Made by a program: the position numbers and the translations under genes. Shown piece after piece: positions 302-31,054 of a DNA stretch of 33,293 bases (positions are counted from its first letter, which is position 1; each line of letters begins with the position of its first letter). Below the pieces are notes generated by a model. The model was given only the letters and a program-made list of their open reading frames with translations, was not told the origin of the DNA and did no database searches. Source of the DNA: an uncultured Pirellula sp. (GTDB lineage Bacteria > Planctomycetota > Planctomycetia > Pirellulales > Pirellulaceae); contig CAIYZV010000351.1 in NCBI GenBank assembly GCA_903930765.1, forward strand, positions 1-33,293, in the 5' to 3' direction.

Positions 302-1288
302 TTACGAAGTCAGCGCTTCGATCATGTCGAGGGTCGCATTTCGCACCGAATCGGTCCACTCCGCACCGCGGTATTTCGGAATGTCGTGGGCAAAGATAAT
401 ACCGCGTGAACTATTGACGATCGCACCGAGTCCGCGTGCATCCATCCCATGCTTAACATCGGACGCCGATCCACCTTGGGCACCGTACCCCGGAACGAGG
501 ATCCACGCACTGGGCATGCGCTCGCGCATCGCGGCGAGTTGATGCGGATACGTAGCACCGACGACGGCGCCGATCGAACCGTAGCCATCGGTTCCGCGTG
601 AATCCGCTGCGAGTGATTCCACATGCGATGCGAGTTTCTCCGACAGCGAAACGGCCGATGTGGATTGCTGGCGTCCATCGACAACGTCTTGTAAAAATCC
701 ACTTCCTGGATTCGACGTTTTCACCAGAACAAAAAGTCCAGAGCCGCTCGCATGGCAGCGCTGCGTGAATGGCTCCAGAGTATCGATCCCTAAAAATGGG
801 TTCACAGTCAACGCATCCGCTCCCCAAGGGCTAAACGCGGCGGTACCTTCGGGTCCCGAACCGAGGAACGCATTCGCGTAGGCGGTCGCGGTCGTACCGA
901 TATCACCGCGTTTCGCATCCATCACCACCAGCACTCCACGCTTGGTGGCGTATCGAACAACCTGAGCTAAAGCGTCCATGCCATACGCACCGAGCTCTTC
1001 AAAGAACGCGGCTTGGGGTTTGACGATAGGTACCAATTCGTGAACCGTGTCGATGATCTCGAAACAGAAGACTCGAAATGCATCCGCTTGTTCTTTCAAC
1101 GATGCCCCCGCACTAGGTCGAATCGACTCAGGAAGAGAACTTGCTCGAGGATCCAATCCGACGCATACGGGATTTTTTTTGGTGAGCACCGCATCGACCA
1201 ATCGCTGTCCGAAAGGGACCAATGGAGCATTGGTGGATTGAGTCGATCTATTTGGATTTGAAAGGGATGCGTTAGAATCGGATGTCAC
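302..1288 (-). CDS. pyrF: Orotidine 5'-phosphate decarboxylase (type 2)
   Basis: Decarboxylates orotidine monophosphate to UMP, the last step of de novo pyrimidine synthesis, in the cytosol. At 328 residues it fits the longer type 2 subfamily. Visible motifs are VGLDPR around D46, K90 in IVKPQ, the catalytic charged network DAKRGD at 124-129 (D124, K126, D129), the phosphate-binding VPGYGAQGG at 265-273 and NSSRGI at 292-297. All key residues are present, so it should be active. The start is GTG without an obvious SD site. The first ~22 residues are a Ser/Asn/Thr-rich extension outside the barrel, so the true start could be slightly downstream. It is not in a pyrimidine operon. The other pyrimidine-family gene in the window (10430-11728) lies 9 kb away and looks inactive. 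Confidence 0.95.
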   Translation of the reverse strand: MTSDSNASLSNPNRSTQSTNAPLVPFGQRLVDAVLTKKNPVCVGLDPRASSLPESIRPSAGASLKEQADAFRVFCFEIIDTVHELVPIVKPQAAFFEELGAYGMDALAQVVRYATKRGVLVVMDAKRGDIGTTATAYANAFLGSGPEGTAAFSPWGADALTVNPFLGIDTLEPFTQRCHASGSGLFVLVKTSNPGSGFLQDVVDGRQQSTSAVSLSEKLASHVESLAADSRGTDGYGSIGAVVGATYPHQLAAMRERMPSAWILVPGYGAQGGSASDVKHGMDARGLGAIVNSSRGIIFAHDIPKYRGAEWTDSVRNATLDMIEALTS

Positions 1289-5975: not shown

Positions 5976-6155
5976 CCCAAGCTTGATTGTTTTGCGCGGC
6001 CCGTGAAAAATCGCGTTTAAAAGCCCCCGTACACACCTCTTCTTAGGACCTTGATTCGATATCTGCGACGCTCGCGTCGGTTCGGTTCAACGAAACCGAC
6101 TGCATGCAACTCTCCGTTGGTCGAAGGATCCGACGGACGCCGCCGAAGTGAATCC

Positions 6156-9100
6156 ATGCAATCCCTTATGAAAGATCTACCTGCGATCGCGCGTTACATG
6201 CGCCTTCCGGAAGAACAACTCCGGTTCCCTGTCGAATTGCTCAATCAAGGTTACGAGCCCAATTACTTGGCTACGTACCGCCCTGATGAGCTAGGGGGGA
6301 TCGACGTGCAAACATTGGCACGTCTCAAGCGGTCCGTCGCCTACGAAGGAAAACTCGCGGCGCACAAAGAACGCGTGCACCAAGCCCTCGAACGGGATCA
6401 GCACTGGTCGGATGCGGTGGCCAAAGTGATCGATGAGTGCACATCGGTCTCCCAAGTCGACTCGATCGCGCGTTACCTTCGCAGCAAGAAAAGCGCGAAG
6501 ACTTTTTCCGAGAACAATCCCAACGTCGAGAAACTCGGTCAAGCGATCTTGATGTTGCAAGTGGAACCGCCCAAGGACCTGCATGCATGGGTTGTTGAAC
6601 AAACCGGTGTCGCTCCTGAGTCCGCAGAAGAACTGTTGAACCAAACCAAACGATGGCTTCAGTTGCTCATGTGCGAAGATGCCAAACTAATTCTTACGCT
6701 GCAACGTGCCGTGCTGCGCAACGCAAACGTTTCGCTCAACATCCTTCCAGAGCCAGCCAAGGTCGCCGATACGGATTCCGATGACAAAACCACTGCGGAT
6801 CTCCCCAGTACCGGCGCTGACACCCCAACCGCAGACGCTCCACTCGCAGGTGCCTCGGCACCAACTCAGGACTCGAGCGACGAGATTGTAGCCCCCCTTT
6901 CAATCGAAACAGCCGCAATCGAAACAGCCGCAATCGAGACAGCCGCAATCGAAACCCAGACTCTGGAAGCCACCGATGGTGGCGCATCCGATGGTGGAGC
7001 ATCCGACGGTAACGCATCCGATGGTGGAGCACCCATAGGTGTTGCCAGTGAAACCTCTACATTGCAGGCACCGGAGTCGGATGCTGGCCCAACAGAGGGT
7101 TCCAAAGAATCCACCGTTGCACCGTTGATCGAACAGTTTCATAAAGGTCGCAAGCAGCCCAAGGGAATCAAGACGAAGAGTTTGTCGGACAAGCAACTCT
7201 CACCTCGTCAACGACGACGCCGCTGGTTGCGGAGCATCGTTGAGTCCTATGCGAAATTGCGCAAGCCGCTTCGTGCACTGACGCCCTACCAAGTTCTCAT
7301 GTTCTCGCGAGGTATCCGCTCGCAGATCATGACATTGCAATTCCAGCAGGACATGCGCCCACTGGTCCAAGCCTGTCGCGATTCGCTATGCGAAGGCAGG
7401 CATCCCCTCCACCCATTGCTGATGGAAGTCGCCGAAATCGGACTCCGCGAAGTTCTTCTGCCGAGACTCCAACAAGACGCACTGATCATTTTGGAAGAGG
7501 ATTCCAATCAGGAATTGATCGAGTCGTCGGTGCTCCATTTACAAGCCTCCTTGCTGCAACGGCCCGTTCATGGGCATCGCATCTTGTTGATCGATGCCGT
7601 CGGCCAGAAAATGGCTGCGGTGGCGATGATCGATGCCGATGGGAGGTTGCTAGGCACCGGTGAACTACCGTGCAACACGAGCAAGGCAGATGTTGTCGCT
7701 CAAAATGTGGCAACGCTAGGCCAATGGGTTCATGAACATCAAATCACGTTGGTGGTTCTTTCCAATGGTGTTGCTAGACGTTACTTGATCCACTCCATCG
7801 CGGAGTTGATGAAGCAGTCGAGCGAAGGTTCGCTGTACTGGACACTGGTCGATCGAGCGGGCTGTGATGCGTATTGCATGTCGCGGACGTCGCTGGTGGA
7901 GCTGCCAAAGATCTCGCGCCGGCATCGCGCTTCGGTGTGGTTGGCTTGGCGCCTCCAAGATCCATTGCGTCAGATCCTTAAGATCGACCCAGCCCGATTG
8001 CGACTCGGCTCCTACCAACGCGAACTGCCGCAACAAGAACTTGAGGAAGCTCTTCACGAATCGATTTCGGCTGCCATCACCAAAGCGGGCGTCGATGTAT
8101 TCCATGCCGACGTCGAGGTGCTGAAACGAATACCGGGAATGAACGAAGAGGCTGCCAAGCAGATCGCTGCAGACCGACAACAAGGGAAAATCACGAACCG
8201 CGAGACGCTCATGCAGTGCCTCCGTTCGAGCTTGACCGAAATGCAAGCCCGTCAAGCGATCGGTTTCTTGCGAGTATACGGCAGCGAGAACACGCTCGAT
8301 GGAACCATCATCCATCCCGATGATTACCGCTTGGCGGAACGACTGATCGCTCATGCTGAGTTGCCAACCCCTCCAGCAACGCCCGAAGGATGGTCCAAAC
8401 CCGACTACGAGAAACTCGCCGCAGCACACGCTGCGGTCGCATCGCTCGCTATCGAATCTACCCTTGCCGATGAAACATCGTCCTATGGGTTCGATGGTGC
8501 GACCAACGAAATCAATCCTAACTTCGGCGTGATCGACGAAGGAACCGAAGGCGAATCGTCGCCTAGCGTCGACGAGACCTCAGAAACCACCGCGGACGGG
8601 GTAGCAACGGAAATAGCCGCTACAGAATCCGCCGTAGCAGAGTCCGCCGTAGCAGAGCCAACATCGGACAACGCGGAGCCAACAGCCCATCTCGAAGAAG
8701 CTGCTGCCTCCCCGAGCGATACTCCAGAATCGATTGACGATGCGGCGGCAACCGCTGAAACAGCAACCAACGCCGCTGGTGAAGAACGCACCAACAGTCG
8801 TATGCCCGAGATCCCAGATTCCCCAATGGCCCGTCCAGCCCTCAGCGTCGATGCGGAAAAACTTGCTAGGAGCTGGCAAGTAGGCCGAGCGAAGTTGATG
8901 TCGGCTTCGTCCTCCCTGCAATTCCCGTTTGCGGACACGCGGGATTTCCAATACCCCGTACCTATCCGCAGCCAAGTTCCACGCTTGGACCAACTGCCGA
9001 CCGGAACGATGCTTTCGGCGTTGGTAATCGGAGTTGCAGATTTTGGTGTGTTCGTAGAACTGGGCCCCGATTGCAGTGGGTTGGTCCACATCAGCCGGCT

Positions 9101-9818
9101 AGCCGATGAATTTGTCGAGGACCCACATCAGTTCGTTCAGGTCGGAGACGTCATCCCCGTGTGGGTCTTGAGCGTGGACGAAAAACGTAAACGCGTCGGA
9201 CTCACCGCGATTTCACCCGCCGCGGAAGAAAAACGCCGCGAAGCACAACGGGCTGAAAAACGAAGCGAACAAGAATCAAGGGGCGATCAACGGCCTAACC
9301 GAAACGATCGCGGGCCGCGTTCGAATGCCCCTGCTAACGCTTCCAATGCCGGTGGGGAACGAACAAGCAACACAACCGGTGGTGATCGTCGTCCTGCTGG
9401 GGCTGGACGAGGCGGCCCGGGTGGCAACCAAGGCGGCGGCCAAGGCCGCGGCGGGCAGGGTCGTGGTGGCGACGGTGGACGTGCAGGCGGTCGCAATCAA
9501 GGTGGCCGAGGCCGGGACGATCGCGGTCGAGATCGACGAGACCGAAATGAAGGAACCGATTCGGACTCCGCACCACGCCGTTCAGTGAAGATCGAGCGAG
9601 CTCAACCGGAGAAGCCAATCACCGAGGCGATGCAGCAAGGCAAAGAACCGCTCCGATCCTTCTCGGATTTGATGCAGTTCATGAAGCAACCAAAACCAGC
9701 AGCCGAATCCCCGGAGACACCAAAGCCAACGACTCCGGTCGAGAACGCTCCGTCCTCGGATTCTAGTTCGCCGTCCGATAACCAAGGGCAAGACTCAGAC
9801 GCCAACACCACCGCCTGA
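6156..9818 (+). CDS. Tex-like S1 RNA-binding protein with RGG tail
   Basis: A probable nucleic-acid-binding factor related to the transcription accessory protein Tex. Counting from the alternative TTG at 6051 (1255 residues), the order is: Tex N-terminal helices (~36-235, with ATYRPDELGGID), an acidic low-complexity linker (~237-360), further helices, a YqgF/RNase H-like domain (~508-640, ILLIDAVG; the usual Asp-Pro-Gly is gone), the hallmark block RLQDPLRQILKIDP and helix-hairpin-helix repeats (~650-765), a second Ala/Glu/Ser linker (~820-930), an S1 domain (~985-1052, GVADFGVFVELGP), and an RGG/Gly-Arg-rich tail (~1080-1180). Typical Tex is about 750-780 residues, so this is much enlarged by disordered segments. 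The ATG at 6156 (1220 residues) is preferred because the upstream codons are basic and unlike the family. A strong promoter lies at 5947. A small gene follows 21 bp later. Confidence 0.9.
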   Translation: MQSLMKDLPAIARYMRLPEEQLRFPVELLNQGYEPNYLATYRPDELGGIDVQTLARLKRSVAYEGKLAAHKERVHQALERDQHWSDAVAKVIDECTSVSQVDSIARYLRSKKSAKTFSENNPNVEKLGQAILMLQVEPPKDLHAWVVEQTGVAPESAEELLNQTKRWLQLLMCEDAKLILTLQRAVLRNANVSLNILPEPAKVADTDSDDKTTADLPSTGADTPTADAPLAGASAPTQDSSDEIVAPLSIETAAIETAAIETAAIETQTLEATDGGASDGGASDGNASDGGAPIGVASETSTLQAPESDAGPTEGSKESTVAPLIEQFHKGRKQPKGIKTKSLSDKQLSPRQRRRRWLRSIVESYAKLRKPLRALTPYQVLMFSRGIRSQIMTLQFQQDMRPLVQACRDSLCEGRHPLHPLLMEVAEIGLREVLLPRLQQDALIILEEDSNQELIESSVLHLQASLLQRPVHGHRILLIDAVGQKMAAVAMIDADGRLLGTGELPCNTSKADVVAQNVATLGQWVHEHQITLVVLSNGVARRYLIHSIAELMKQSSEGSLYWTLVDRAGCDAYCMSRTSLVELPKISRRHRASVWLAWRLQDPLRQILKIDPARLRLGSYQRELPQQELEEALHESISAAITKAGVDVFHADVEVLKRIPGMNEEAAKQIAADRQQGKITNRETLMQCLRSSLTEMQARQAIGFLRVYGSENTLDGTIIHPDDYRLAERLIAHAELPTPPATPEGWSKPDYEKLAAAHAAVASLAIESTLADETSSYGFDGATNEINPNFGVIDEGTEGESSPSVDETSETTADGVATEIAATESAVAESAVAEPTSDNAEPTAHLEEAAASPSDTPESIDDAAATAETATNAAGEERTNSRMPEIPDSPMARPALSVDAEKLARSWQVGRAKLMSASSSLQFPFADTRDFQYPVPIRSQVPRLDQLPTGTMLSALVIGVADFGVFVELGPDCSGLVHISRLADEFVEDPHQFVQVGDVIPVWVLSVDEKRKRVGLTAISPAAEEKRREAQRAEKRSEQESRGDQRPNRNDRGPRSNAPANASNAGGERTSNTTGGDRRPAGAGRGGPGGNQGGGQGRGGQGRGGDGGRAGGRNQGGRGRDDRGRDRRDRNEGTDSDSAPRRSVKIERAQPEKPITEAMQQGKEPLRSFSDLMQFMKQPKPAAESPETPKPTTPVENAPSSDSSSPSDNQGQDSDANTTA
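6901..6955 (+). repeat. 15-bp tandem repeat inside the Tex-like gene (ETAAI array)
   Basis: Three consecutive 15-bp units (GAAACAGCCGCAATC, one with a single change) at 6906-6950, flanked by partial units, encode ETAAI repeats in the acidic linker. Confidence 0.95.
6975..7034 (+). repeat. 15-bp tandem repeat inside the Tex-like gene (DGGAS array)
   Basis: Four 15-bp units of the form GATGGTGGMGCATCC encode DGGAS-type pentapeptides. The array starts 20 bp after the ETAAI array but has a different sequence, so the two arose independently in the same linker. Confidence 0.95.
8616..8660 (+). repeat. 15-bp tandem repeat inside the Tex-like gene (ESAVA array)
   Basis: Three 15-bp units (GCCGCTACAGAATCC, GCCGTAGCAGAGTCC, GCCGTAGCAGAGCCA) encode ESAVA-like pentapeptides in the second disordered linker. 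The first copy has diverged. Confidence 0.85.
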
Positions 9819-9839: not shown

Positions 9840-10328
9840 ATGTCAGAATTTGAAGATCGATTGAAGAATGCGATCTCCCGAGGTGCGAACCGCGCGGAGT
9901 CGCTCTATTCCGAAGCCGAACGCAAACGGTTAGAAGCTGAAGAGCTTAAAAAGGCCCACAGCAAGTATCGGCTGGAACTCTCCGACAGAATTGAAATCGT
10001 CGTCAAAAAATTGATCGACATGTTTCCGGGCTTTCGCTACCAATCTGTTTTCAACGATTCCGGATGGGGCAGCGCGTGCGTACGAGATGACTTGGTCATC
10101 GAAAAAGGTTCTCGAACCAACAAGTACAGCCGGTTCGAAATCGTCGTGCGCCCAGTCAACGAGTTCAACGTCCTCGATATCCAAGCCAAGGGAACGATCG
10201 CCGATAAAGAGCTGATGACTCGAAGTTTGTATCAGCAGATAGGCCAAGTCGAAGTCGAGAAGTTTTTAAAGGCGATCGATGACTGGGCCGTTTCTTACGC
10301 CGAGTTGTACGCGACGAAACGCGGATAG
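9840..10328 (+). CDS. Small protein of unknown function downstream of the Tex-like gene
   Basis: A 162-residue protein that I do not recognise. The N-terminal ~55 residues are highly charged and helical, probably coiled coil (SEAERKRLEAEELKK). The rest looks alpha/beta, with GFRYQSVF and RFEIVVRPVNEF. There is no signal peptide, so it is probably cytosolic. It starts 21 bp after the Tex-like stop and should share its transcript, which suggests but does not prove a linked role. No SD is apparent. The next gene converges from the right, with 101 bp between stops and no strong terminator in between. Confidence 0.8.
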   Translation: MSEFEDRLKNAISRGANRAESLYSEAERKRLEAEELKKAHSKYRLELSDRIEIVVKKLIDMFPGFRYQSVFNDSGWGSACVRDDLVIEKGSRTNKYSRFEIVVRPVNEFNVLDIQAKGTIADKELMTRSLYQQIGQVEVEKFLKAIDDWAVSYAELYATKRG

Positions 10329-10429: not shown

Positions 10430-11728
10430 TCAAAACGCTGCAGTGTAGAGTTTACGACCGGCGACCAAACTGCACCGGACCAAGCCGTAGAGTTCCGCTC
10501 CCTCAAGGGGCGTGTTGTACGATTTGCTTTGGAACAACGCCGCTTCAACAGTCCATTTCCGATCGGCATCGATCACCACCAAATCGGCAGGGGAACCGAT
10601 CGCGAGCGAACCACCGGGTTGCTTGAGGAGCCTCGCGGGGTTCAAACTCAATTTCTGAAGTGCCGTCACCCAATCGATGATACCCGGTCGAATCAAGAAG
10701 GTAATCACTTGGGCCAATGCCGTTTCCAACGCGATCATGCCAAACGGCGCCGCGTCGATTTCCAACATCTTCTTCTCCAACGAGCATGGCCTGTGCCCTG
10801 AGCTGATGATGTCGATCGTTCCGTCTTGAATACCCTCCAAACATGCCTCAAGGTGATCTGCCGATCGGAGAGGCGGCTTGACTTTCCGATTGGTATCGAA
10901 GGACCGCATCGAATCGTCCGTCATGTGAAGATTGGCCGCATGGATGCCGACCGAGAACGGAAGAGAGCGATGCTTTGCCCTCCGGCACAATTCGACACTG
11001 CCAGAGGTGCTGATGCTGGTCAAGTGGAGTTTGCCGCCAGTCGCTTCCACCAATCGCAGGTCACGCGACGTCGCCAAATCCTCGGCTTCTGCGGGGATCG
11101 GGGATAGCCCTAATTTCAACTGCTCGAGCCCCTCGTGCATGACTCCACCGCGCGAGAGCGAGCCGATCTCCGGATGATCGAATACGTAGCGATCAAACAT
11201 GCTGCAATATTCCAACGCCCGACGCATCAACCCCGTGTTTTCAAGGGCTGACGGCGTATCGCTCAGCGCCACGGCCCCCGCCTCGACCAGCGATCCGATT
11301 TCCGCAAGACTCTCTCCTTTGCGTTCCTTGCTTACGCAACCGATCGGCAGCAGTCGACATCGATCCGCCCGCAGCCCCTTCGAGTAGATAAACTCGACGC
11401 TGGCCGCAGTATCGATGGGTGGATCAGTGTTGGGGGACAGTGCTACCGAGGTGTATCCACCCGCAAGGGCCGCAGCCGTCCCGGTCGCTATCGTCTCGTC
11501 TTCCTCACGCCCAGGCTCCCCAAATTCCGTAGCTAGGTCAAACAAACCTGGTCCTACGATGCACCCGCGGGCGTCGATCCGCTCAATGCCCCTCGGCACA
11601 TCTCCATCGGTCGGATCCAACGCGGCAATTTTGCCATCAATTACCAAGAGTCGCCCCTCGCGGTCCATCCGCGAGGCTGGGTCGATCAACCGGCCATTTT
11701 CAATCAACCAAGTATTCGTGTCGCTCAA
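10430..11728 (-). CDS. Dihydroorotase-like protein lacking active-site residues (pseudo-dihydroorotase)
   Basis: A 432-residue member of the class I dihydroorotase family by overall sequence: LSPNTDPPIDT, GAVALSD, GGVMHEG and the C-terminal GSPADLVVIDAD are all in place. The catalytic set is largely lost. The metal-binding HxH expected in DLHVHLREPG reads DLATEFGEPG (A66, E68; Arg also lost at G70). The second His of HxxH is S238. The catalytic Asp and following His of TDHAPH are G311 and C315. D157 and H185 remain. It should therefore not hydrolyse dihydroorotate. In known cases (PyrC' of Pseudomonas) such proteins support aspartate transcarbamoylase assembly, and a similar role is inferred. 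No pyrB is adjacent. The start is TTG (LSDTNTW) because the family begins right there and the next ATG is codon 21. Confidence 0.9.
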   Translation of the reverse strand: MSDTNTWLIENGRLIDPASRMDREGRLLVIDGKIAALDPTDGDVPRGIERIDARGCIVGPGLFDLATEFGEPGREEDETIATGTAAALAGGYTSVALSPNTDPPIDTAASVEFIYSKGLRADRCRLLPIGCVSKERKGESLAEIGSLVEAGAVALSDTPSALENTGLMRRALEYCSMFDRYVFDHPEIGSLSRGGVMHEGLEQLKLGLSPIPAEAEDLATSRDLRLVEATGGKLHLTSISTSGSVELCRRAKHRSLPFSVGIHAANLHMTDDSMRSFDTNRKVKPPLRSADHLEACLEGIQDGTIDIISSGHRPCSLEKKMLEIDAAPFGMIALETALAQVITFLIRPGIIDWVTALQKLSLNPARLLKQPGGSLAIGSPADLVVIDADRKWTVEAALFQSKSYNTPLEGAELYGLVRCSLVAGRKLYTAAF

Positions 11729-14274: not shown

Positions 14275-17200
14275 CTATTCCTTGCGAGATCGCAGGTAAC
14301 TGATGATGTCCGCAATCTCATCGGTCGACATGAGTTGTTCAAAGCCTTCGGGCATGAGCGACTGCTGGGACTCTCGCAGTTCCGAAATCTGCGACTTGAG
14401 CAACCGATCGATCCGTCCAGCATTGTTGACCCACTCGATCGCATCGGAATCCTCCCGAAGTCTCAGACCGGTGACCAACTCTCCGTCCTCGGTACGCGCT
14501 TGGAACACCCAGTACTTCTCTTCGACAGAGCGGTTGGGATCCAGAATAGCGGTCACCCACGCCTCATTGGTCCATTGGACCAACCCCAAAAGATTAGGCC
14601 CTACACTTGGGTCCGTTTGATCTCCGTGGACGCGAGGCTCGTGGCAAACCACACAATGCTTCCTATAAGCCCGTTCGCCGCGAACGAGATCTACTCCAAC
14701 CTGCGACTCATCCCCTCGGGCTTCTTTCGCTCGAACGGGCCATTGGCCCAACGCATTTCGAACAATCGCTGGTCGGTCCGCCCCGGGTGCGGGCCCAAAC
14801 AATGCGAGAACTCGTTTCTCTTCGGCACCTTTCGCGAACTGCCGCAACTTCTGAAGTGTCGCCGCGTCAACTTCGTTCATGGGGATCACACCGGCTTCGA
14901 CGGCATCCAGCAATCGCCCCATGGTCTCCGCGTTGCGAGACAACTCGGTCAAAAGCACAGTACGGCTGGTCTGTGACAACGAAGACCACTTGGAGAGCAA
15001 CCTAGCCGATGACTCGCCTCCAGTGCGCAATAAACCTCGTGTCAACTCCGCATCCAATGGGTCTCGACTTCCCATCGATATTGTTTCTAAAAACAAATCG
15101 TGGTGCCGATTCCAAACGGAACCCATCTGCGAAAGGACGAGTTCCATCGCGGCGAATCGCGTTGCGATCGAGGCATCGCTCGAAACCATCTCCTTGCGGG
15201 CTGCTTCCATCAAACGATCGACCGCCTCCGACTCCAAGCCCTTGGAATCGCTTCCCGCAGAAAATTGGCGGGCGAGCAGATAGTGCCATGCAGGATGCTG
15301 ATCGGTCGCTGTGGCGACTTTCGCCAACAATCGATTGCGAAGTCCCTCCGAGGATTTGGGGATCAGTTTCTCCACCAAGTGATTCACACCCGTGGCGTAA
15401 TCGATCGATCCCTCATTCAACGACTCCAGGAGTGATTCAATAACGCCATCGACCGCGTTGGGAGCGATGAATATCGCGCAGTCCACCACCCATGGATCCT
15501 GTCCGTGCATCGCGAGTGCCGATGCGATCGCGCGTGAGTCTGGCGAATCGGAAATACTTGATTCGATCGCCAGCCGGAGCGCTAGCGAGGCGGAATGAAC
15601 GACCAATTGAGGATCGACGCTATCCCAAAGCATGGATCGCATCCCTGACGGTTGTTGCGTGCGGTCGATTTGCTTCACGAGCGCTTCGACCCACGAGGCT
15701 TGTTCGTCCATCGCTCCGTTTGAAACCTCGCCAGACAAAACCGTGCGTTCGGATAGATTGCGACACGCGAAGAGCATCTTCTGGTAATCCTTGTCCGTAC
15801 ACTTGCCCATCGCAAAAAGCGTATGCAACGCGCGCACACGCGCTCGATAACTTTCGAAATTCAACGCAGTATCTCGAATCCGTTCAATCGTGGCTGCACC
15901 TACTTTTGACTCCGAAGCGCGATCGATAAGGATTTGCTGAGCCAGATCGGCCCGAGCTGCATCGCTTCCCATAAGCTCCACCAGCAACTGCGATTCCGAG
16001 GCACGCGTATAATCGACGATTGGACGAGGGGTGTAGTCGGTGCGGCGGACGCGGTAGATCCGTCCGCGATCCTCGCCTGCGCGAACATTGATGCGTCGTT
16101 GCCACTCCTCAGGAATCCACTCGGGGTGTTCGATCACATAGCGGTACATATCCACGATCCAAAGGGTTCCGTCAGGAGCATTTTCGATGCGCACGGGACG
16201 GAACCACGGATCGCTGCTTCTGACAAACTCGGACTTGGCATCCTCCTCCGCGCGGATCGCCGACCATGTTGCCCCGTTCCTCTTGAGTTGGAGCCGAGAA
16301 ACCAAGTTATGCACGGGCTCGCATACCAATGCATAATCGCGCATCTGGTCGCCTTGGCCATCACCGCGATTGACGATGGTGCTGCACGCCGAGGTGAAGC
16401 GGTTGATTGCGTACAGATCATTAAAGCGGTCTGCTTGCTGGCTGATTGGGAAAACCGGTGGAATACTCGGAGGATTGGTGATCAATTGATAACGGCGGCG
16501 AGGCGATGCCCCCGATCGCTTGATCCATGCTGGGTCGACGACGTAATGAAACATCGGAAGACTGTTCTCGTTCCCGAACCAGTTCCCCCAATCGTCGGTG
16601 GCGCGAATGTATTGGGTTACGCCTGTCTCCAAGCGCATCTCCCCTGAGTTTGGATCGAGGCTGATATCGTACCCCGCGACTCGAAAATCCTGCGGTGGAC
16701 TGGTGCGACGAACCCCTTTGCCCACCGCGGTAATCTGTTCGGCTCCCCCGCCAGGCCCAAAATACAAACGATGATCGAGCCCGTAGGTAAATCCGTGGAC
16801 ACGGTGCTGCGGATTACCTTCGGGGAAACCGGTCAGTAGCGTTATGCGTTCATCGCATTTTCCATCGCCATCGGTATCGCGTGCGAAAAAAATCTCTGGA
16901 GCGCAAGCGATCACCACACCATCTCCCCAAGCATAGACGCCAGCCGGATAGTGAAGACCATCCAGGAACATTGTGCTCGCATCCATGCGACCGTCTCCAT
17001 CGGTATCCTGCAGCGTCTTCACGCAACCGGTCTTGCCACCACCCAACGGATAATCCCCCATCTCCACGACCCATACCTTGCCATCCGCACCGAACGCGAT
17101 ACCAACGGGATCGGTGATGAGCGGTTCACAAGCCACGAGTTCAATCGTCCAACCATTGGGGACTTCGATCGTAGCGAGAGAATCCTCGGGCGATCGAGGC

Positions 17201-18666
17201 ATGTCCGCCAACTGCTTTTGTCGGGTCATTTGCAGAACACGATCAACGATCTTCTCTTCGGTCAGAGACTCCCATCGACCGGGTTGACCGTAGTACAGCA
17301 TCGAGCCATCGACTTCGTAACCACCCTCGCCCCGAACACGTTCGCTCGCGACATAGGCAAACACATCATCCACGTAACCAGCAACCCAAACATTCGCGAA
17401 CTGACTCAACTCGCGTTCGAGTCGGATTTGGTAATCCACGACCACTTCGCCGCCCATGAACACCCAAGCGAGCTCGTTGCCGAACGACCAGTAATGAACT
17501 GGGGCCGGATACGTTTCGGGGATCCGATCCTTGCGCTGGAGGAGCTCCAGCCAAGTATTCGCAAAGTTACGCTCATGGCCCGAGGCACTGTTTTGCATCT
17601 CCTCCAGTCGAGCTTTGTTCGGCCGCTCGGAGGCCAAGGCAACAAGGGTAAAGGCTGCTTGGGTGGGAAACGGTAACGCCTTGAGAGGCTTGGCAACAAC
17701 AGCGAGAACACTCGTCGCTAACTCATCCCCGTGGGCTCGGGCATTCTCGATCGAGCCGCGAGGATTCGGATTGGCATCTGCCCCGCAGCCGATAATAGGC
17801 AACGCGACACAACCCGGAAGCTCCGATTCGATCTTGGTAGCACTGATCCCAGCCCAATCCGCACTGATCTTATTCGCGTCGGGTGAGATAGAAGTACAGT
17901 GGCATCCGTACTGGTACGCAACGGCGATCGGTTTACCGCTCGCATCCGAAGCCTTGATCACGCGCACATTCCGATCGACAGGCCCATCATCCACGGTCCC
18001 GATCGCAACCCATTCCTTGTTCTTCAACATCCGTCGATTGATCGCAAACTCGGCTCGGCCCAGTCCGTATTCGACGGTACCATCTTGCAGATTGCCAGCC
18101 GCTCGCTGCACCGTATCGACGATGGAATCCAGCAACTGACGGCTGTATTTCTTGGTCGATTCCAGATGCGTCCCATCCAGTGGAGCAGCGAACAAGTTCG
18201 GAATCACTCCATCGAGATGGGGAGCCGTATGAGAATGCGTTGTGCAAATAACAATACGAGACCGCGGAATCATGAGCAACGGCGTTACTCGTTCGAGAAT
18301 CTCCTCGGTCATGACCGCCGAGATACCGATCGCATCCACCGAGACGATGACTAGCGGTTCCGAAGCCGAATCACGGACGGGTGCTAGGACGAGCGCCCTC
18401 GCGAAAAGCCGGTCCTCGACCTCTTGAGCAGGCTCGGTTCGCGATGCGTAGCCACTCAAGCGGACCGGCTCTGCAGGAGTGATGTCGGTTTTGGCAACGC
18501 CGATCCTCCACGCATCGGCGGCGAAGGCGATCGTCGGATTCGTCAACGACAGCATCGTCACCACAGCCCAAAGCCAAAGAACGCAGCGTCGCTGAGGCAA
18601 CCGTGTCCAGTGGTGAGCGCGATACGAACCAAGGAGACAACCGTGGGGGATTTCAAGCAGAGACAT
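14275..18666 (-). CDS. Ceramidase-like / PVC-type haem-binding dehydrogenase / cytochrome c fusion
   Basis: A 1463-residue exported multidomain enzyme. A signal peptide is at ~26-50. Residues ~53-430 resemble neutral/alkaline ceramidase: GVAKTDITPAEPVRLSGYAS, the metal-site-like THSHTAPH, and YGCHCTSISPDA with ISADWAG. From ~500 to ~880 comes a PVC-type beta-propeller dehydrogenase (IAFGADGKVWVVEMGDYP, DTDGDGKCDE calcium-like loops). Helical HEAT-like repeats run to ~1310. A cytochrome c domain carries CVVCH at 1338-1342 and a possible Met ligand in SLMPEG. The role is inferred: periplasmic cleavage of an amide-linked lipid or related substrate, joined to oxidation with electron transfer to haem. 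AGGAGT five nt before the ATG fixes the start. It is the last gene of a three-gene minus-strand operon, 45 bp after its upstream neighbour. Confidence 0.9.
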   Translation of the reverse strand: MSLLEIPHGCLLGSYRAHHWTRLPQRRCVLWLWAVVTMLSLTNPTIAFAADAWRIGVAKTDITPAEPVRLSGYASRTEPAQEVEDRLFARALVLAPVRDSASEPLVIVSVDAIGISAVMTEEILERVTPLLMIPRSRIVICTTHSHTAPHLDGVIPNLFAAPLDGTHLESTKKYSRQLLDSIVDTVQRAAGNLQDGTVEYGLGRAEFAINRRMLKNKEWVAIGTVDDGPVDRNVRVIKASDASGKPIAVAYQYGCHCTSISPDANKISADWAGISATKIESELPGCVALPIIGCGADANPNPRGSIENARAHGDELATSVLAVVAKPLKALPFPTQAAFTLVALASERPNKARLEEMQNSASGHERNFANTWLELLQRKDRIPETYPAPVHYWSFGNELAWVFMGGEVVVDYQIRLERELSQFANVWVAGYVDDVFAYVASERVRGEGGYEVDGSMLYYGQPGRWESLTEEKIVDRVLQMTRQKQLADMPRSPEDSLATIEVPNGWTIELVACEPLITDPVGIAFGADGKVWVVEMGDYPLGGGKTGCVKTLQDTDGDGRMDASTMFLDGLHYPAGVYAWGDGVVIACAPEIFFARDTDGDGKCDERITLLTGFPEGNPQHRVHGFTYGLDHRLYFGPGGGAEQITAVGKGVRRTSPPQDFRVAGYDISLDPNSGEMRLETGVTQYIRATDDWGNWFGNENSLPMFHYVVDPAWIKRSGASPRRRYQLITNPPSIPPVFPISQQADRFNDLYAINRFTSACSTIVNRGDGQGDQMRDYALVCEPVHNLVSRLQLKRNGATWSAIRAEEDAKSEFVRSSDPWFRPVRIENAPDGTLWIVDMYRYVIEHPEWIPEEWQRRINVRAGEDRGRIYRVRRTDYTPRPIVDYTRASESQLLVELMGSDAARADLAQQILIDRASESKVGAATIERIRDTALNFESYRARVRALHTLFAMGKCTDKDYQKMLFACRNLSERTVLSGEVSNGAMDEQASWVEALVKQIDRTQQPSGMRSMLWDSVDPQLVVHSASLALRLAIESSISDSPDSRAIASALAMHGQDPWVVDCAIFIAPNAVDGVIESLLESLNEGSIDYATGVNHLVEKLIPKSSEGLRNRLLAKVATATDQHPAWHYLLARQFSAGSDSKGLESEAVDRLMEAARKEMVSSDASIATRFAAMELVLSQMGSVWNRHHDLFLETISMGSRDPLDAELTRGLLRTGGESSARLLSKWSSLSQTSRTVLLTELSRNAETMGRLLDAVEAGVIPMNEVDAATLQKLRQFAKGAEEKRVLALFGPAPGADRPAIVRNALGQWPVRAKEARGDESQVGVDLVRGERAYRKHCVVCHEPRVHGDQTDPSVGPNLLGLVQWTNEAWVTAILDPNRSVEEKYWVFQARTEDGELVTGLRLREDSDAIEWVNNAGRIDRLLKSQISELRESQQSLMPEGFEQLMSTDEIADIISYLRSRKE

Positions 18667-26696: not shown

Positions 26697-29678
26697 ATGC
26701 ACTCTCGTGCCACTGCAAGGTCGGCTCGTTTCCGAGAACGGGCATTTGCTGCCCGTGTTTCCCAAACGCTGGCGCAGGTCGTCGTGATGTTGCTCGTCGC
26801 TCTCCCATCCCAAGGGCTGGGACAACTCGCGACCTTGCACGAACAGATCGACCAGTCCCTCTCCAAATCCCCGGTGTGGCTTCAAGCTTCCCAGCAACCG
26901 GATAGCTTGAGCCTGCGACGGCTCTCTTTAGATCTCCGAAACATTATCCCAACCCAAGAGGAACTCGATGCCTTTGCCAGCGAGCCGTTGGAGGGTCGTT
27001 GGGAACGATGGATCGATCGATTCCTTGGTGATCCCCTCCATCGGGAACGCATGGTCGATTGGTTCGATAAAGGCATGATGCAACGCAGACCGTTCCAAAA
27101 CGTCGATCGCCCGACGTGGATCCGGTATCTTCGCGATTCGGTGGATGCCAATTTGGCGCTCGATCAGATGATGAGGGAAATGATCCAGAGCACATGGTGG
27201 GACAAAAGCCAACGCGCTCAGCAACGCTTCTACTTGGACCGAGGTGGCGATTCCCACGCCATCGCGCGAGACCTGGGCCGCGTCTTGTTCGGTCGGGACA
27301 TGCAATGCGCTCAATGCCATGATCATCCCCAAATTGATGACTACCTACAAATCGATTACCACGGGCTCCTAGCGTTCGTCTCCGCCGGTTCGATGGTGGA
27401 AGGCAAAACAACGGATGACAAAGGTGCCGAACAGAAACTTCAAATGTACATCGAGCGCGCAGCAGGAGACGCACCGTTTGAATCGGTATTCAACAAAGGG
27501 GTTTCATTCCGAACCGCAAGCCGCATGCTGGAGAATCCGGAGAAACTCGAACCGTACCTAGCACCGGACGCACGTTATCAACCTGCTGCCATGCCCGGCA
27601 CCTTCGCCGGTGTGCCGGCGCCACCCGTCTCAAGTCGCCGCGCACTCCTCGCAGCTCAACTGACCAGCGAGAACCGCGCGTTCGCGACCAACTGGGCCAA
27701 TCGTCTTTGGGCGATCATGTTCGGACGGGGCTTGATCCATCCCCTAGACATGCATCATTTCGACAATCCTGCTAGCCATCCGGAATTGCTCAAGCAACTT
27801 ACCTCGGCACTCGTCGAATCTAAATTCGACATCAAGCCGGTGCTGCGTCAAATCGCACGCAGCCAAACATACCGTCGGGGACGTTCAACACCGCTCCATC
27901 AAACCCTCGACACCGATTCGGTAATCGCTGCTAACCCCGATCTGCTCAAGCAGTGGTACGATCAGGTGCAAGCCGAGCTCGCATCTTGCAAGAGCCGCAT
28001 CGAACAAGCCGATGGAATCGTTAACACGCACCACTCGACGATGGAAACCGCATCGAACACGTGGCGGGATGTCCAAAAGGAACGAGTGACGCTACGCCTG
28101 GAACTCGATGGGGCTGAGGCCAAATTCCAAGATGCGAATAAGAAGTGGAACGATGCCGTAGCCGCCGCCGACAAAGCCAAAGGGGCCCATACCGCACTGA
28201 CTCAGAAAATCCAATTGATCGATGAAGCAGCCCAGAAGCTGGAACAAGCCAAATCGATTGGCGATGATCCTGAAATCCAAGCGGTGATCGCGACGACGAA
28301 GGCCAAGGCCGAAGCGCTGCGACCACAATTAGTCCCGCTCGAACAAGCTTCCACGGCAGCAGCGACAGCTCGCGATACCGCTGCACAGGTCAAAGAAGGT
28401 GAACGCGCTGCATGGCAAGCTGTCGTCACCAAATTGCAACCGGTCGAAGAACGGCTTTTGCAAGCAGACGTTGCCATGGTCAAAGCGAGAACGGAATACC
28501 AAACCGCCCGCGGCAATGCTGCGTGGCTCCGCGAGGACCAGAACCGCTGGGAACGACTGGCTGAATGGTTCTCGATATCCGCCAAAGTACGAGACGCGGA
28601 ATCCCAACTGCTGCAGATCGCCGAAAGCCAGCGAACTACCGGCGAGAAGATAAAAGTGTTAGAGGATTCGATACGCTCCGCGGAACAGTCGCTCTCCACC
28701 CTCCAAAAAGAACACCAAGAGTACGGTGTGCAAGTCGCTTCGAAAATGTCATCGATGACCGAGGTTGTCTCGCAACGCGATCGCTTAACGGTTGCCGCGA
28801 AAGCATTAGCAGACGCGAGTGGACTGGTCACCAACGGTGGTAACGTCGAGCCCGCCAAGCAAGAACTCGAAGCAGCCATCGCCGCCCGAACCACGCAACT
28901 AGCTTCGCTCGAAACAGAACTTGTTTCGATGAAAACCCAAGCCACCGCATTGGAATCCAAAGTCAATGCAGCAGCACAGGTGGTTGGAAAATCGAAGGAG
29001 GATGCCCAAGCCGCCCAACTCGAACTACAAACTATCACCACAAAGAACGCCGAAGCAAAAACGCAGCGAAAAACATTGCGAGAACAATGCGGTGTGATGC
29101 GAGCCGAGGTCGAGTCGGATTTGCAAGCCTTATGTTCGATCGCTGCAGAAAGGGCATTGAGCCCTGAGCAATTCGGCTGGTCGATTCTGGTCGCAACCAA
29201 CGTCTTCGCAGGCTACCTCCAGAACGAGAAGAATGAGCTCGACAAGAATGCTCCACTTCCTCAGGATGCCCCACCTGAACAAAAGGTGGCGAGGGAACTA
29301 CAAATCACTCGAGGTGCGATCGACAAGCTGCAGTCGAGCGTCGACAACTTTTCTCGACTATATGCATCGGGTGTCGGCCAAACTGCAGACGAGTTCTTCG
29401 CGTCTCCGGATCAAGCCCTCTATGTTGCGAATGGCGGGGCAGTACACAGCTGGGCTGCCCCCAGCGGAAGCAATCTTTCTGCCAAATTGGTGCAAGCCAC
29501 GGACGTTCAGCAAGCGGCTAAACTATTGGTTTGGGGTTTGCTCTCGCGCGAGCCCCAGCCTGAAGAATTGCGTTTGATTTCCGAATTGATCGCCACGAGC
29601 GGGGATAAAAAACCTGCTGTTGTGCAAGAGTTGGTATGGAGTATTCTCGCAGGAGTCGAGTTTCGCTTATACCCGTAG
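26697..29678 (+). CDS. DUF1549/DUF1553 protein with long coiled-coil insertion
   Basis: A 993-residue exported planctomycete protein. The signal region ends near GLGQ (residue ~43). The DUF1549 part (~45-260) has LRRLSLDLRNIIPTQEEL, and a c-type haem-like CAQCH is at 204-208 in QCAQCHDHPQ. The DUF1553 start (~315-410) has NRLWAIMFGRGLIHP and LRQIARSQTYRR. Residues ~415-820 then form a long Ala/Glu/Lys/Gln-rich coiled coil with no counterpart in ordinary family members. The DUF1553 end resumes at ~823 with EQFGWSILVATNVFAGY and closes with LLSREPQPEEL. Family members pair with DUF1501 proteins, as here: DUF1501 follows after 74 bp. The function is unproven; envelope-located redox or binding work is inferred. 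The ATG at 26697 lacks a clear SD. Confidence 0.92.
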   Translation: MHSRATARSARFRERAFAARVSQTLAQVVVMLLVALPSQGLGQLATLHEQIDQSLSKSPVWLQASQQPDSLSLRRLSLDLRNIIPTQEELDAFASEPLEGRWERWIDRFLGDPLHRERMVDWFDKGMMQRRPFQNVDRPTWIRYLRDSVDANLALDQMMREMIQSTWWDKSQRAQQRFYLDRGGDSHAIARDLGRVLFGRDMQCAQCHDHPQIDDYLQIDYHGLLAFVSAGSMVEGKTTDDKGAEQKLQMYIERAAGDAPFESVFNKGVSFRTASRMLENPEKLEPYLAPDARYQPAAMPGTFAGVPAPPVSSRRALLAAQLTSENRAFATNWANRLWAIMFGRGLIHPLDMHHFDNPASHPELLKQLTSALVESKFDIKPVLRQIARSQTYRRGRSTPLHQTLDTDSVIAANPDLLKQWYDQVQAELASCKSRIEQADGIVNTHHSTMETASNTWRDVQKERVTLRLELDGAEAKFQDANKKWNDAVAAADKAKGAHTALTQKIQLIDEAAQKLEQAKSIGDDPEIQAVIATTKAKAEALRPQLVPLEQASTAAATARDTAAQVKEGERAAWQAVVTKLQPVEERLLQADVAMVKARTEYQTARGNAAWLREDQNRWERLAEWFSISAKVRDAESQLLQIAESQRTTGEKIKVLEDSIRSAEQSLSTLQKEHQEYGVQVASKMSSMTEVVSQRDRLTVAAKALADASGLVTNGGNVEPAKQELEAAIAARTTQLASLETELVSMKTQATALESKVNAAAQVVGKSKEDAQAAQLELQTITTKNAEAKTQRKTLREQCGVMRAEVESDLQALCSIAAERALSPEQFGWSILVATNVFAGYLQNEKNELDKNAPLPQDAPPEQKVARELQITRGAIDKLQSSVDNFSRLYASGVGQTADEFFASPDQALYVANGGAVHSWAAPSGSNLSAKLVQATDVQQAAKLLVWGLLSREPQPEELRLISELIATSGDKKPAVVQELVWSILAGVEFRLYP

Positions 29679-29740
29679 ACGAAATATATGGTCCATGCCA
29701 ACATCGCGATGAAGGCGGGACACACGTCATTATAAGTACT

Positions 29741-29745
29741 AGGAG
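29741..29745 (+). promoter_or_regulatory. Ribosome binding site that sets the DUF1501 start
   Basis: AGGAG at 29741-29745 is 7 nt before the ATG at 29753, which puts the Tat signal at the very N terminus. An in-frame ATG at 29636 would overlap the preceding gene and add 39 atypical residues. Confidence 0.85.
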
Positions 29746-29752
29746 CATCGCT

Positions 29753-31054
29753 ATGAAGATTGCAAAATACGCTTGTGGTTCGATGGATCACATCGTCAAT
29801 CGACGCAGGTTTCTTTCGGGTGTCGCAGGAAGCGTCGCAACAACCGGCGCGGTCGTGGGTGGCCTCGGGACGCTTACGCAGGGAATCGCTGCCGCCGAAA
29901 TCCAGCGCCGGGACATGCGTGTGGTGGTCTTCAACATGCACGGCGGGTTGAGCCAACTGGAGAGCTGGGATCCCAAACCTCTCACGCGGACCGGCGGACC
30001 ATTCCGAGCTATCCCAACCAGCGTACCCGGAATCCATATCAGCGAATTGCTTCCGATGACGGCAAAGCAAATGCACCATCTCTGCTTGCTGCGCGGTGTG
30101 AATACTTCTGAAGATGATCACGGCAAAGGGGCTTACATGATGCTGACCGGCCGACGACAAACGCCCTCGGCAGAGTTCCCGCAAATCGGCTCGGTCGCTG
30201 CAAAGATGCTGCATGATGACCAAACTGGTTTACCTGGACACATCGTCGTGACTCCGGGCGGAGGTGGGGGTCGCGGTAATGAGGCCGCTTATCTGGGCCC
30301 CAAGTTCTCCAGCATTCAACTCGGCGGAGACAAACCACCTCAGAACTCGAACAAACCGGATGCGGTCTCCGATGAAGCCGAAAAGCGGCGGCATGAGATT
30401 CGCCGCAAGATCAACGAACAGTTCCTCAACCAACGCCGCAGCGCGATCACGGACGCATACACGCATTCCTACGAGCAAGCCCTAAAGCTCATGGAACGCC
30501 GCGAAGTGTTTGATGTCTCCAAGGAACCCGACAGCGCCAAGCAACGCTATGGCAGTTCCGACCTCGGACGCCAATGCTTAATGGCGCGTCGATTGCTCGA
30601 AAATGGCGTGTCGTTCGTTCAAGTCACCCACTCCAACTACGACACCCATAACGACAACTTCAATTTCCATATCGAACAAGTCGGTGAGTTCGATCAAGCC
30701 TTCGCAACCTTCATCGACGATCTCGCGCAGCGTGGCATGCTGGAGAAGACCTTGGTCGTGGTGCTGAGCGAGTTTGGACGCACTCCGAACATAAACCTCT
30801 ACTACGGCCGCGATCACTGGTCCAAAGCGTGGTCGATCGCCATGGCGGGAGCAGGTGTGCAACACGGGGCAGCGTTTGGCAAGACCAACGAGGAGGGGAC
30901 CGAAGTTATCGACGGCCAATGCGATCACGGAGATATCTTCCATACGATCTTGCGAGCCGTCGGAGTCGACTCCAGCCAATCCCTCATCGTCGATGGACGC
31001 GAGGTTCCGATCGCCGATCCGGCAGCAGAGCCGATCTGGAAGGTTTTGGCATGA
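29753..31054 (+). CDS. DUF1501 protein, Tat-exported
   Basis: A 433-residue member of the DUF1501 (alkaline-phosphatase/sulfatase-fold-related) family. The Tat signal NRRRFLSGVAGSVATTGAV spans ~16-34. The mature part shows VVVFNMHGGLSQLESWDPKP, LRGVNTSEDDHGKGAYMM, HIVVTPGGGGG, SNYDTHNDNFN, VVVLSEFGRTPNIN and GRDHWSKAW, the family's conserved blocks with possible metal ligands (the Asp/His of YDTH, DHW and CDHGDIFH). The substrate is unknown. The Tat route implies folding, probably with cofactor, before export. It follows DUF1549/1553 by 74 bp and overlaps the WD40 start by 4 bases (ATGA), which implies translational coupling. The three genes form one operon. Confidence 0.93.
   Translation: MKIAKYACGSMDHIVNRRRFLSGVAGSVATTGAVVGGLGTLTQGIAAAEIQRRDMRVVVFNMHGGLSQLESWDPKPLTRTGGPFRAIPTSVPGIHISELLPMTAKQMHHLCLLRGVNTSEDDHGKGAYMMLTGRRQTPSAEFPQIGSVAAKMLHDDQTGLPGHIVVTPGGGGGRGNEAAYLGPKFSSIQLGGDKPPQNSNKPDAVSDEAEKRRHEIRRKINEQFLNQRRSAITDAYTHSYEQALKLMERREVFDVSKEPDSAKQRYGSSDLGRQCLMARRLLENGVSFVQVTHSNYDTHNDNFNFHIEQVGEFDQAFATFIDDLAQRGMLEKTLVVVLSEFGRTPNINLYYGRDHWSKAWSIAMAGAGVQHGAAFGKTNEEGTEVIDGQCDHGDIFHTILRAVGVDSSQSLIVDGREVPIADPAAEPIWKVLA

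Follow-up and report, generated by a model that had tools for sequence, protein, structure and literature searches.

Why would a bacterium keep, as an open and full-length frame, a dihydroorotase (DHO) homologue whose catalytic residues seem to have been taken apart? The question is raised by a gene, designated here as pyrC', in the window (the whole stretch of DNA analyzed here, comprising 33,293 nucleotides from an uncultured Pirellula sp., contig CAIYZV010000351.1). Its coding part occupies positions 11728 down to 10433 of the minus strand, an orientation that the first-pass annotation had left unstated, and plus-strand frame 1 over the same stretch shows several stops; the positions of the gene, its diagnostic codons, and related pathway genes are collected in Table 1. 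Among the window ORFs that were scanned, pyrF was the sole other pyrimidine gene recognized, and scans for promoters, terminators, tRNAs, and Rfam families returned nothing useful.

Table 1. Positions of pyrC', its diagnostic codons, and related pathway genes (window coordinates unless a contig handle is given).
Feature	Position	Strand	Remark
pyrC' (pseudo-dihydroorotase, 432 aa)	10430..11728	minus	TTG start at 11728; stop codon = 10430-10432
Codons 64-73, DLATEFGEPG	11510..11539	minus	Place of alpha-zinc HxH and substrate Arg (Aquifex DIHVHLRDPG), by alignment
Codon 157 (Asp)	11258..11260	minus	Does not vary among the planctomycete copies compared, dismantled or intact
Codon 185 (His)	11174..11176	minus	Beta-site position; Arg in 23/29 family members
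Codon 238 (Ser)	11015..11017	minus	Place of second beta-site His, by alignment
Codons 311-315, GHRPC	10784..10798	minus	Place of catalytic DHAPH, by alignment
pyrF (OMP decarboxylase)	302..1288	minus	PF00215, 110.9 bits; not adjacent to pyrC'
Type II PyrC	L013 463-1479	minus	E. coli-type

A dismantled active site on a predicted dihydroorotase fold

The window protein scores 307 bits against NCBIfam TIGR00857 (cut-off 279), can be aligned with Aquifex DHO over residues 8-428, i.e., over nearly its full length, and reaches 360.9 bits with the best DHO profile vs. 141.9 bits with that of allantoinase. Its AlphaFold model (built from an alignment of 53 sequences; mean pLDDT 90.9, pTM 0.92) has two entries of ATCase-bound Aquifex DHO (3d6n and 4bjh) as its best PDB matches, with Z of 60.0 and 59.4, an rmsd of 1.4-1.5, a Foldseek TM of 0.95, and 35% identity, followed by the Bacillus, Thermus, and Staphylococcus DHOs (Z 55.3-56.7); type I DHO chains top the fold ranking, with the 3hm7 allantoinase at Z 49.4. 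The protein is predicted by this model to have kept the DHO fold, and its identity as an allantoinase, hydantoinase, or CRMP was rejected, as both the profile score and the fold rank favor type I DHO.

What the first-pass annotation had described as a DHO homologue with a dismantled site is indeed that, and of type I: in alignments with Aquifex DHO and relatives, A66, E68, and G70 fall on Aquifex His61, His63, and the substrate Arg, and S238, G311, and C315 on His232, Asp305, and the next His, meaning that the alpha-zinc His, the substrate Arg, and the catalytic Asp are gone from a protein that scores above the TIGR00857 cut-off. Near these motifs the alignments contain no gap or shift that would supply replacements, which rules out ligands being provided from shifted positions. 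D157 and H185 correspond to Aquifex Asp153 and His180. According to the part of the source available (PMC3880350), the zinc ligands of Aquifex DHO are His61, His63, and Asp153, and the His180/His232 replacements by Ala leave catalysis unaffected, which makes residues 185 and 238 uninformative; it is at 66, 68, 70, and 311 that the losses, judging from the aligned residues, should end catalysis. The further claim that D157 and H185 survive, making the loss a selective one, stood for D157, which is invariant across 29 dismantled members of the window’s family and 102 intact copies, but not for H185, replaced by Arg in most of those family members.

Selection on the dismantled copy

The earlier suggestion that the gene is intact and maintained was borne out by its open 432-codon frame and by the comparison of the window’s genome (G000) with its congener G133, the two pyrC' copies being 98% identical and differing by 7 non-synonymous and 79 synonymous changes over 432 codons, for a dN/dS of 0.025 (or 0.035 when five extra 5' codons are included). 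For the same pair of genomes, dN/dS was 0.020 for PyrB, 0.101 for type II PyrC, 0.095 for YbeY, and 0.068 for the neighbor at 9840-10328. In six more dismantled pairs for which dS was usable, the ratio ranged from 0.055 to 0.135 (for the pair involving L256, dS is 2.1; four further pairs were saturated), and it was 0.016 in one pair of second DHOs. The dismantled copy is under strongly purifying selection.

The rest of the pathway and the second dihydroorotase

A search of the window’s genome, as proposed in the first-pass annotation, recovered one other recognized dihydroorotase, a complete type II (E. coli-type) PyrC (443.6 bits, cut-off 292.95) whose HxH, Lys, His, and DSAPH motifs are intact, together with an intact PyrB, the one over the cut-off (306.3 bits, cut-off 237), which has its motifs in place and is encoded on a different contig from pyrC'. 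A weaker transcarbamylase match (146 bits) is also present, and no TIGR00857 match over the cut-off besides the window protein was found in this genome, which is 96% complete. Going by this gene content, dihydroorotate chemistry is most likely left to the separate, intact type II PyrC.

Type II PyrC was seen in 3 of the 196 genomes of the order (G000, G133, and G125). Among the best 80 of 287 matches in GTDB contigs, the top four were Planctomycetota MAGs (L171-L174; 95, 90, 88, and 68% identity), and the rest, at 56-65%, bore proteobacterial names, mostly beta and gamma, with L216 (Flavobacteriales) and L241 (Planctomycetota) as exceptions. Its occurrence in G133, G125, and the MAGs L171-L174 makes contamination an unlikely source of the gene; L172’s genome, however, seems to be the same as G125 (same contig places), and therefore not all of these occurrences are independent. 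G000 and G133 match across 1545 bases that take in type II PyrC and flanking sequence of a few hundred bases.

Most members of the window’s family with a dismantled PyrC' have another presumed active DHO, one of the PRK07575 type (NF005751), which differs from the window protein and was found in 79 of the 196 genomes of the order and in 33 of the 35 of the window’s family (the L148 protein, for instance, reaches 649 bits against a DHO cut-off of 529). Its activity in these bacteria is presumed from the name of the protein family. The core states of this type read QHRTHHD in 13 rows, with Gln for the first His of HxH, and HHRTHHD in 8; the Gln rows include L144-L148, L150-L152, and L155-L157, and the motif DDQVHFREPG occurs in L257 and L261. 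This Gln-for-His caveat leaves G000 untouched, because its type II PyrC has canonical motifs.

G000 and G133 have no PRK07575-type DHO and carry type II PyrC instead; G125 and L173’s genome combine type II PyrC with a PRK07575-like DHO and a tandem pyrC', and in L171’s genome the dismantled copy is the sole TIGR00857 match. The simplest reading of these gene contents is that type II PyrC was likely gained laterally and the older spare DHO was then lost.

A probable non-catalytic partner of aspartate transcarbamoylase

The explanation favored here, with a probability of about 0.78, is that the window gene encodes a catalytically dead type I DHO kept as a non-catalytic subunit of ATCase, like the PyrC' of Pseudomonas. 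The first-pass annotation had pointed to that Pseudomonas arrangement, and the present data support the comparison. By analogy, PyrB would require PyrC' to form or stabilize its active trimer inside a PyrB6-PyrC'6 dodecamer, and dihydroorotate would be formed by a separate enzyme, here type II PyrC. The precedent for such a partner is the ATCase of P. aeruginosa (PMC7053772, as far as the available part of that source goes). The support comprises the loss of ligands, the predicted fold, purifying selection, the second DHO gene, co-occurrence with PyrB, the tandem arrangement in relatives, and a clade separate from the proteobacterial one; the contact between PyrC' and PyrB, the need of PyrB for PyrC', the absence of activity, and the premise that dead sites are not regained are what we infer.

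The likeness to class A2 ATCase of Pseudomonas, in a comparison that drew on nine proteobacterial pseudo-DHOs and no Pseudomonas sequence itself, lies in a ligand-less type I DHO that occurs beside an intact PyrB and a separate intact DHO, and in the pyrB-pyrC' tandem that is usual in planctomycete relatives, although the two genes are unlinked in the species of the window. Unlike the planctomycete proteins, those nine keep R70 (9/9) and mostly D311 (7/9) and have lost D157 (to Q, N, or E). The class A1 ATCase-DHO of Aquifex (3d6n, 4bjh) is the closest solved fold, but its active site is intact whereas that of the window protein is dismantled, the HxH, substrate Arg, and catalytic Asp of an active class A1 enzyme all being absent; intact planctomycete pyrB-pyrC pairs of other families do look like class A1. 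A CAD-like (Ura2 type) pseudo-DHO of fungi, known here by description from the part of PMC7053772 available, is likewise dead beside ATCase, but it is a fused domain, whereas planctomycete pyrC' encodes a separate chain. A class B ATCase (PyrB plus PyrI) was ruled out, as PyrI was found in none of the 196 genomes of the order scanned, including G000 (96% complete), with 7 of 14 control genomes positive.

The alternative that survives best, although we consider it unlikely, is that of a dead enzyme with a role unrelated to PyrB, e.g., a binding or regulatory protein, for which the linkage to pyrB would be a relic of an old operon. It would accommodate the fact that both G000 and G133 carry pyrB on a contig other than that of pyrC', i.e., the tandem is not seen in this species, and yet the dN/dS of pyrC' is low, and it would also accommodate the residues that have become common in the old site across the family: among the 29 dismantled family members, E or Q is found at 68 in 29, G311 in 28, R315 in 25, and R185 in 23, which suggests a repacked pocket. 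What speaks against it is how closely the gene follows PyrB. Presence or absence of a strong pyrC/pyrC' copy agrees with that of a PyrB over the cut-off in 191 of 196 genomes (both in 147, neither in 44, discordant in 5, with unlisted rows set by elimination) and in 35 of 35 genomes of the window’s family (31 with both; 4 with neither, namely G109, G129, G172, and G184; 0 discordant); many of the 44 genomes with neither belong to family f7 and are therefore not independent, and 40 of the 46 genomes without pyrC/pyrC' carry a PRK07575-type DHO. The tandem, with pyrB less than 500 bases upstream on the same strand, is kept in 46 of 54 dismantled loci, and is likewise seen in 35 of the 43 intact loci and in all 9 proteobacterial ones, but in none of the 25 that belong to other DHO-like types, the misses including two short-flank loci and two intact loci with pyrB 582 and 889 bases off. 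L256, from L171’s genome, has no pyrB within 1.4 kb upstream. An AlphaFold read-through of PyrB and pyrC' (L266 locus, 22 in-frame rows, no control) had a pTM of 0.58 and placed the domains with low confidence.

Less probable still is that the protein remains an enzyme, acting on carbamoyl aspartate or a related compound through another metal site (E68, D157, H185, and C315) or without a metal. In favor of such an enzyme, the 53-row alignment shows no variation at D157 and H312, and the model predicts an intact barrel, but among the 13 rows of the window protein’s own clade the candidate ligands already vary (H, R, or M at 185; C, K, R, or S at 315), so that none of them makes up a conserved alternative metal site. 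The alpha-site His, the Arg, and the Asp are, moreover, all gone, and an intact DHO gene is present elsewhere in the genome. The 29 dismantled family members were also compared column by column with the 102 intact copies: of 120 columns near-invariant in the latter, 91 were kept and 29 changed in the former, the changed ones including 66, 68, 100, 185, 238, 311, and 315 and excluding 70 and 157. The loss of the G70 type is restricted to the window’s close clade and a few others, R70 being kept in 26 of the 29. In most members, judging from the residues found at these columns, a salt bridge of E/Q68 with R185/R315 may have replaced the zinc; the window protein itself carries H185 and C315, not Arg. 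That the gene is an intact-looking pseudogene or a product of sequence error, for which the loss of catalytic residues is the sole point, can be dismissed, given that the 432-codon frame is open in two species, between which 79 differences are synonymous and 7 non-synonymous, and that the full-length survey copies of the family are likewise dismantled.

Intact and dismantled copies across the order

To return to the dead ATCase subunit as the preferred reading, its distribution was surveyed with the window protein as the query against the 196 genomes of the order, 170 of which have a match at E 1e-20 and 150 at E 1e-60 or better. The ligand sites could be read in 148 of these 150 strong copies, the seven core sites being intact in 102, dismantled in 42, and gapped in 4, which leaves 144 copies read at all core sites. 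Every full-length copy of the window’s family read in the survey alignments is dismantled, and dismantled copies also occur, to differing extents, in families f3, f6, f10, and f15. An intact exception in the window’s family, coming from a wider draw of which a part was read, is L114 of G232, a pyrC behind pyrB. L114 is nearly identical to f3 copies and groups with L025 and L026 in the tree, and the contamination of G232 stands at 5%; by sequence, it may be foreign to that genome.

A second DHO (of the PRK07575 type or type II) accompanies 37 of the 42 dismantled copies vs. 2 of the 102 intact ones (Fisher p 2e-26, kinship ignored; the association is clumped phylogenetically, and a pair test on the tree had 3 to 4 independent contrasts to draw on, too few for significance). 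The two intact copies with a second DHO are those of G039 and G008, the latter already without His at 315 and Asn at 100. For five dismantled copies no second DHO was detected. Four of them come from G031, G057, and G074, which are 83, 70, and 65% complete, and from G060, which is 93% complete, and congeners of these four genomes do have a spare DHO; the fifth is that of G061. In the G061 copy (L334), unusual residues cluster in a short stretch around HxH while the remainder of the sequence is intact, and this oddity looks like a sequence error.

Descent and possible repeated loss

In a 115-protein tree built with the ligand columns removed and with no Pseudomonas sequence in it, the nine beta- and gammaproteobacterial pseudo-DHOs group together (99% SH-aLRT), as do the planctomycete pyrB-type copies (99% SH-aLRT), whose clade holds 43 intact and 54 dismantled rows; the two clades being separate in this tree, descent shared with the proteobacterial pseudo-DHOs was not found. 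The dismantled label changes 3 times in the 115-protein tree (all forced by starred branches) and 4 times in a second tree of 85 rows (3 forced), counts that are silent on gain vs. loss and come from quick trees with long branches. The root of the planctomycete clade differs between the two trees, with intact rows within dismantled ones in the 115-protein tree vs. dismantled within intact in the 85-row tree; the case for independence therefore depends on the assumption that a metal site, once lost, is not rebuilt. If dead sites are indeed not regained, the dead state most likely arose inside planctomycetes, as a convergence with proteobacteria.

A bolder proposal, which we put forward tentatively and rate at slightly below even odds, is that this one order displays a graded and repeated conversion of class A1 into class A2, whose stages would lead from intact pairs through early losses (G008 and the G002/G074 group) to full dismantling. 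Each dismantled group would have its spare DHO; in the window’s lineage, a type II PyrC gained laterally would have taken the place of the spare, and the partner gene would have left the vicinity of pyrB while remaining under selection, with the metal site perhaps turned into the E/Q68 salt bridge in most members.

Implications for annotation and function

In the open-licence literature searched, as far as the available parts of these sources go, pseudo-DHOs are named for Pseudomonas and for fungi, and none for planctomycetes; the gene beside pyrB in Rhodopirellula baltica is called PyrC/DHOase (PMC4016543, available in part and cited here for that printed name alone). Pairing ATCase with a dead DHO is a design reported for Pseudomonas and for fungi; the present data suggest that it occurs also in planctomycetes and arose there independently. 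The living intermediates within a single order would allow a direct test of why a dead DHO is kept (i.e., of its part in ATCase trimer assembly), and also of whether the spare enzyme must come first. Automatic annotation labels such proteins dihydroorotase, as the passing of the TIGR00857 cut-off by the window protein illustrates.

Other genes of the window

Three other features of the window were noted. At 6051-9818 on the plus strand lies a 1255-aa Tex-like protein with YqgF-like, HHH, and S1 domains, a length that exceeds that usual for Tex proteins. A 1463-aa frame at 14275-18666 on the minus strand joins a ceramidase-like domain, DUF7133, and cytochrome c (PF04734, PF23500, and PF00034, respectively). 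Finally, 26697-31054 on the plus strand holds a gene for a PSCyt2/PSD1 protein followed by one for a DUF1501 protein, a pair typical of planctomycetes.
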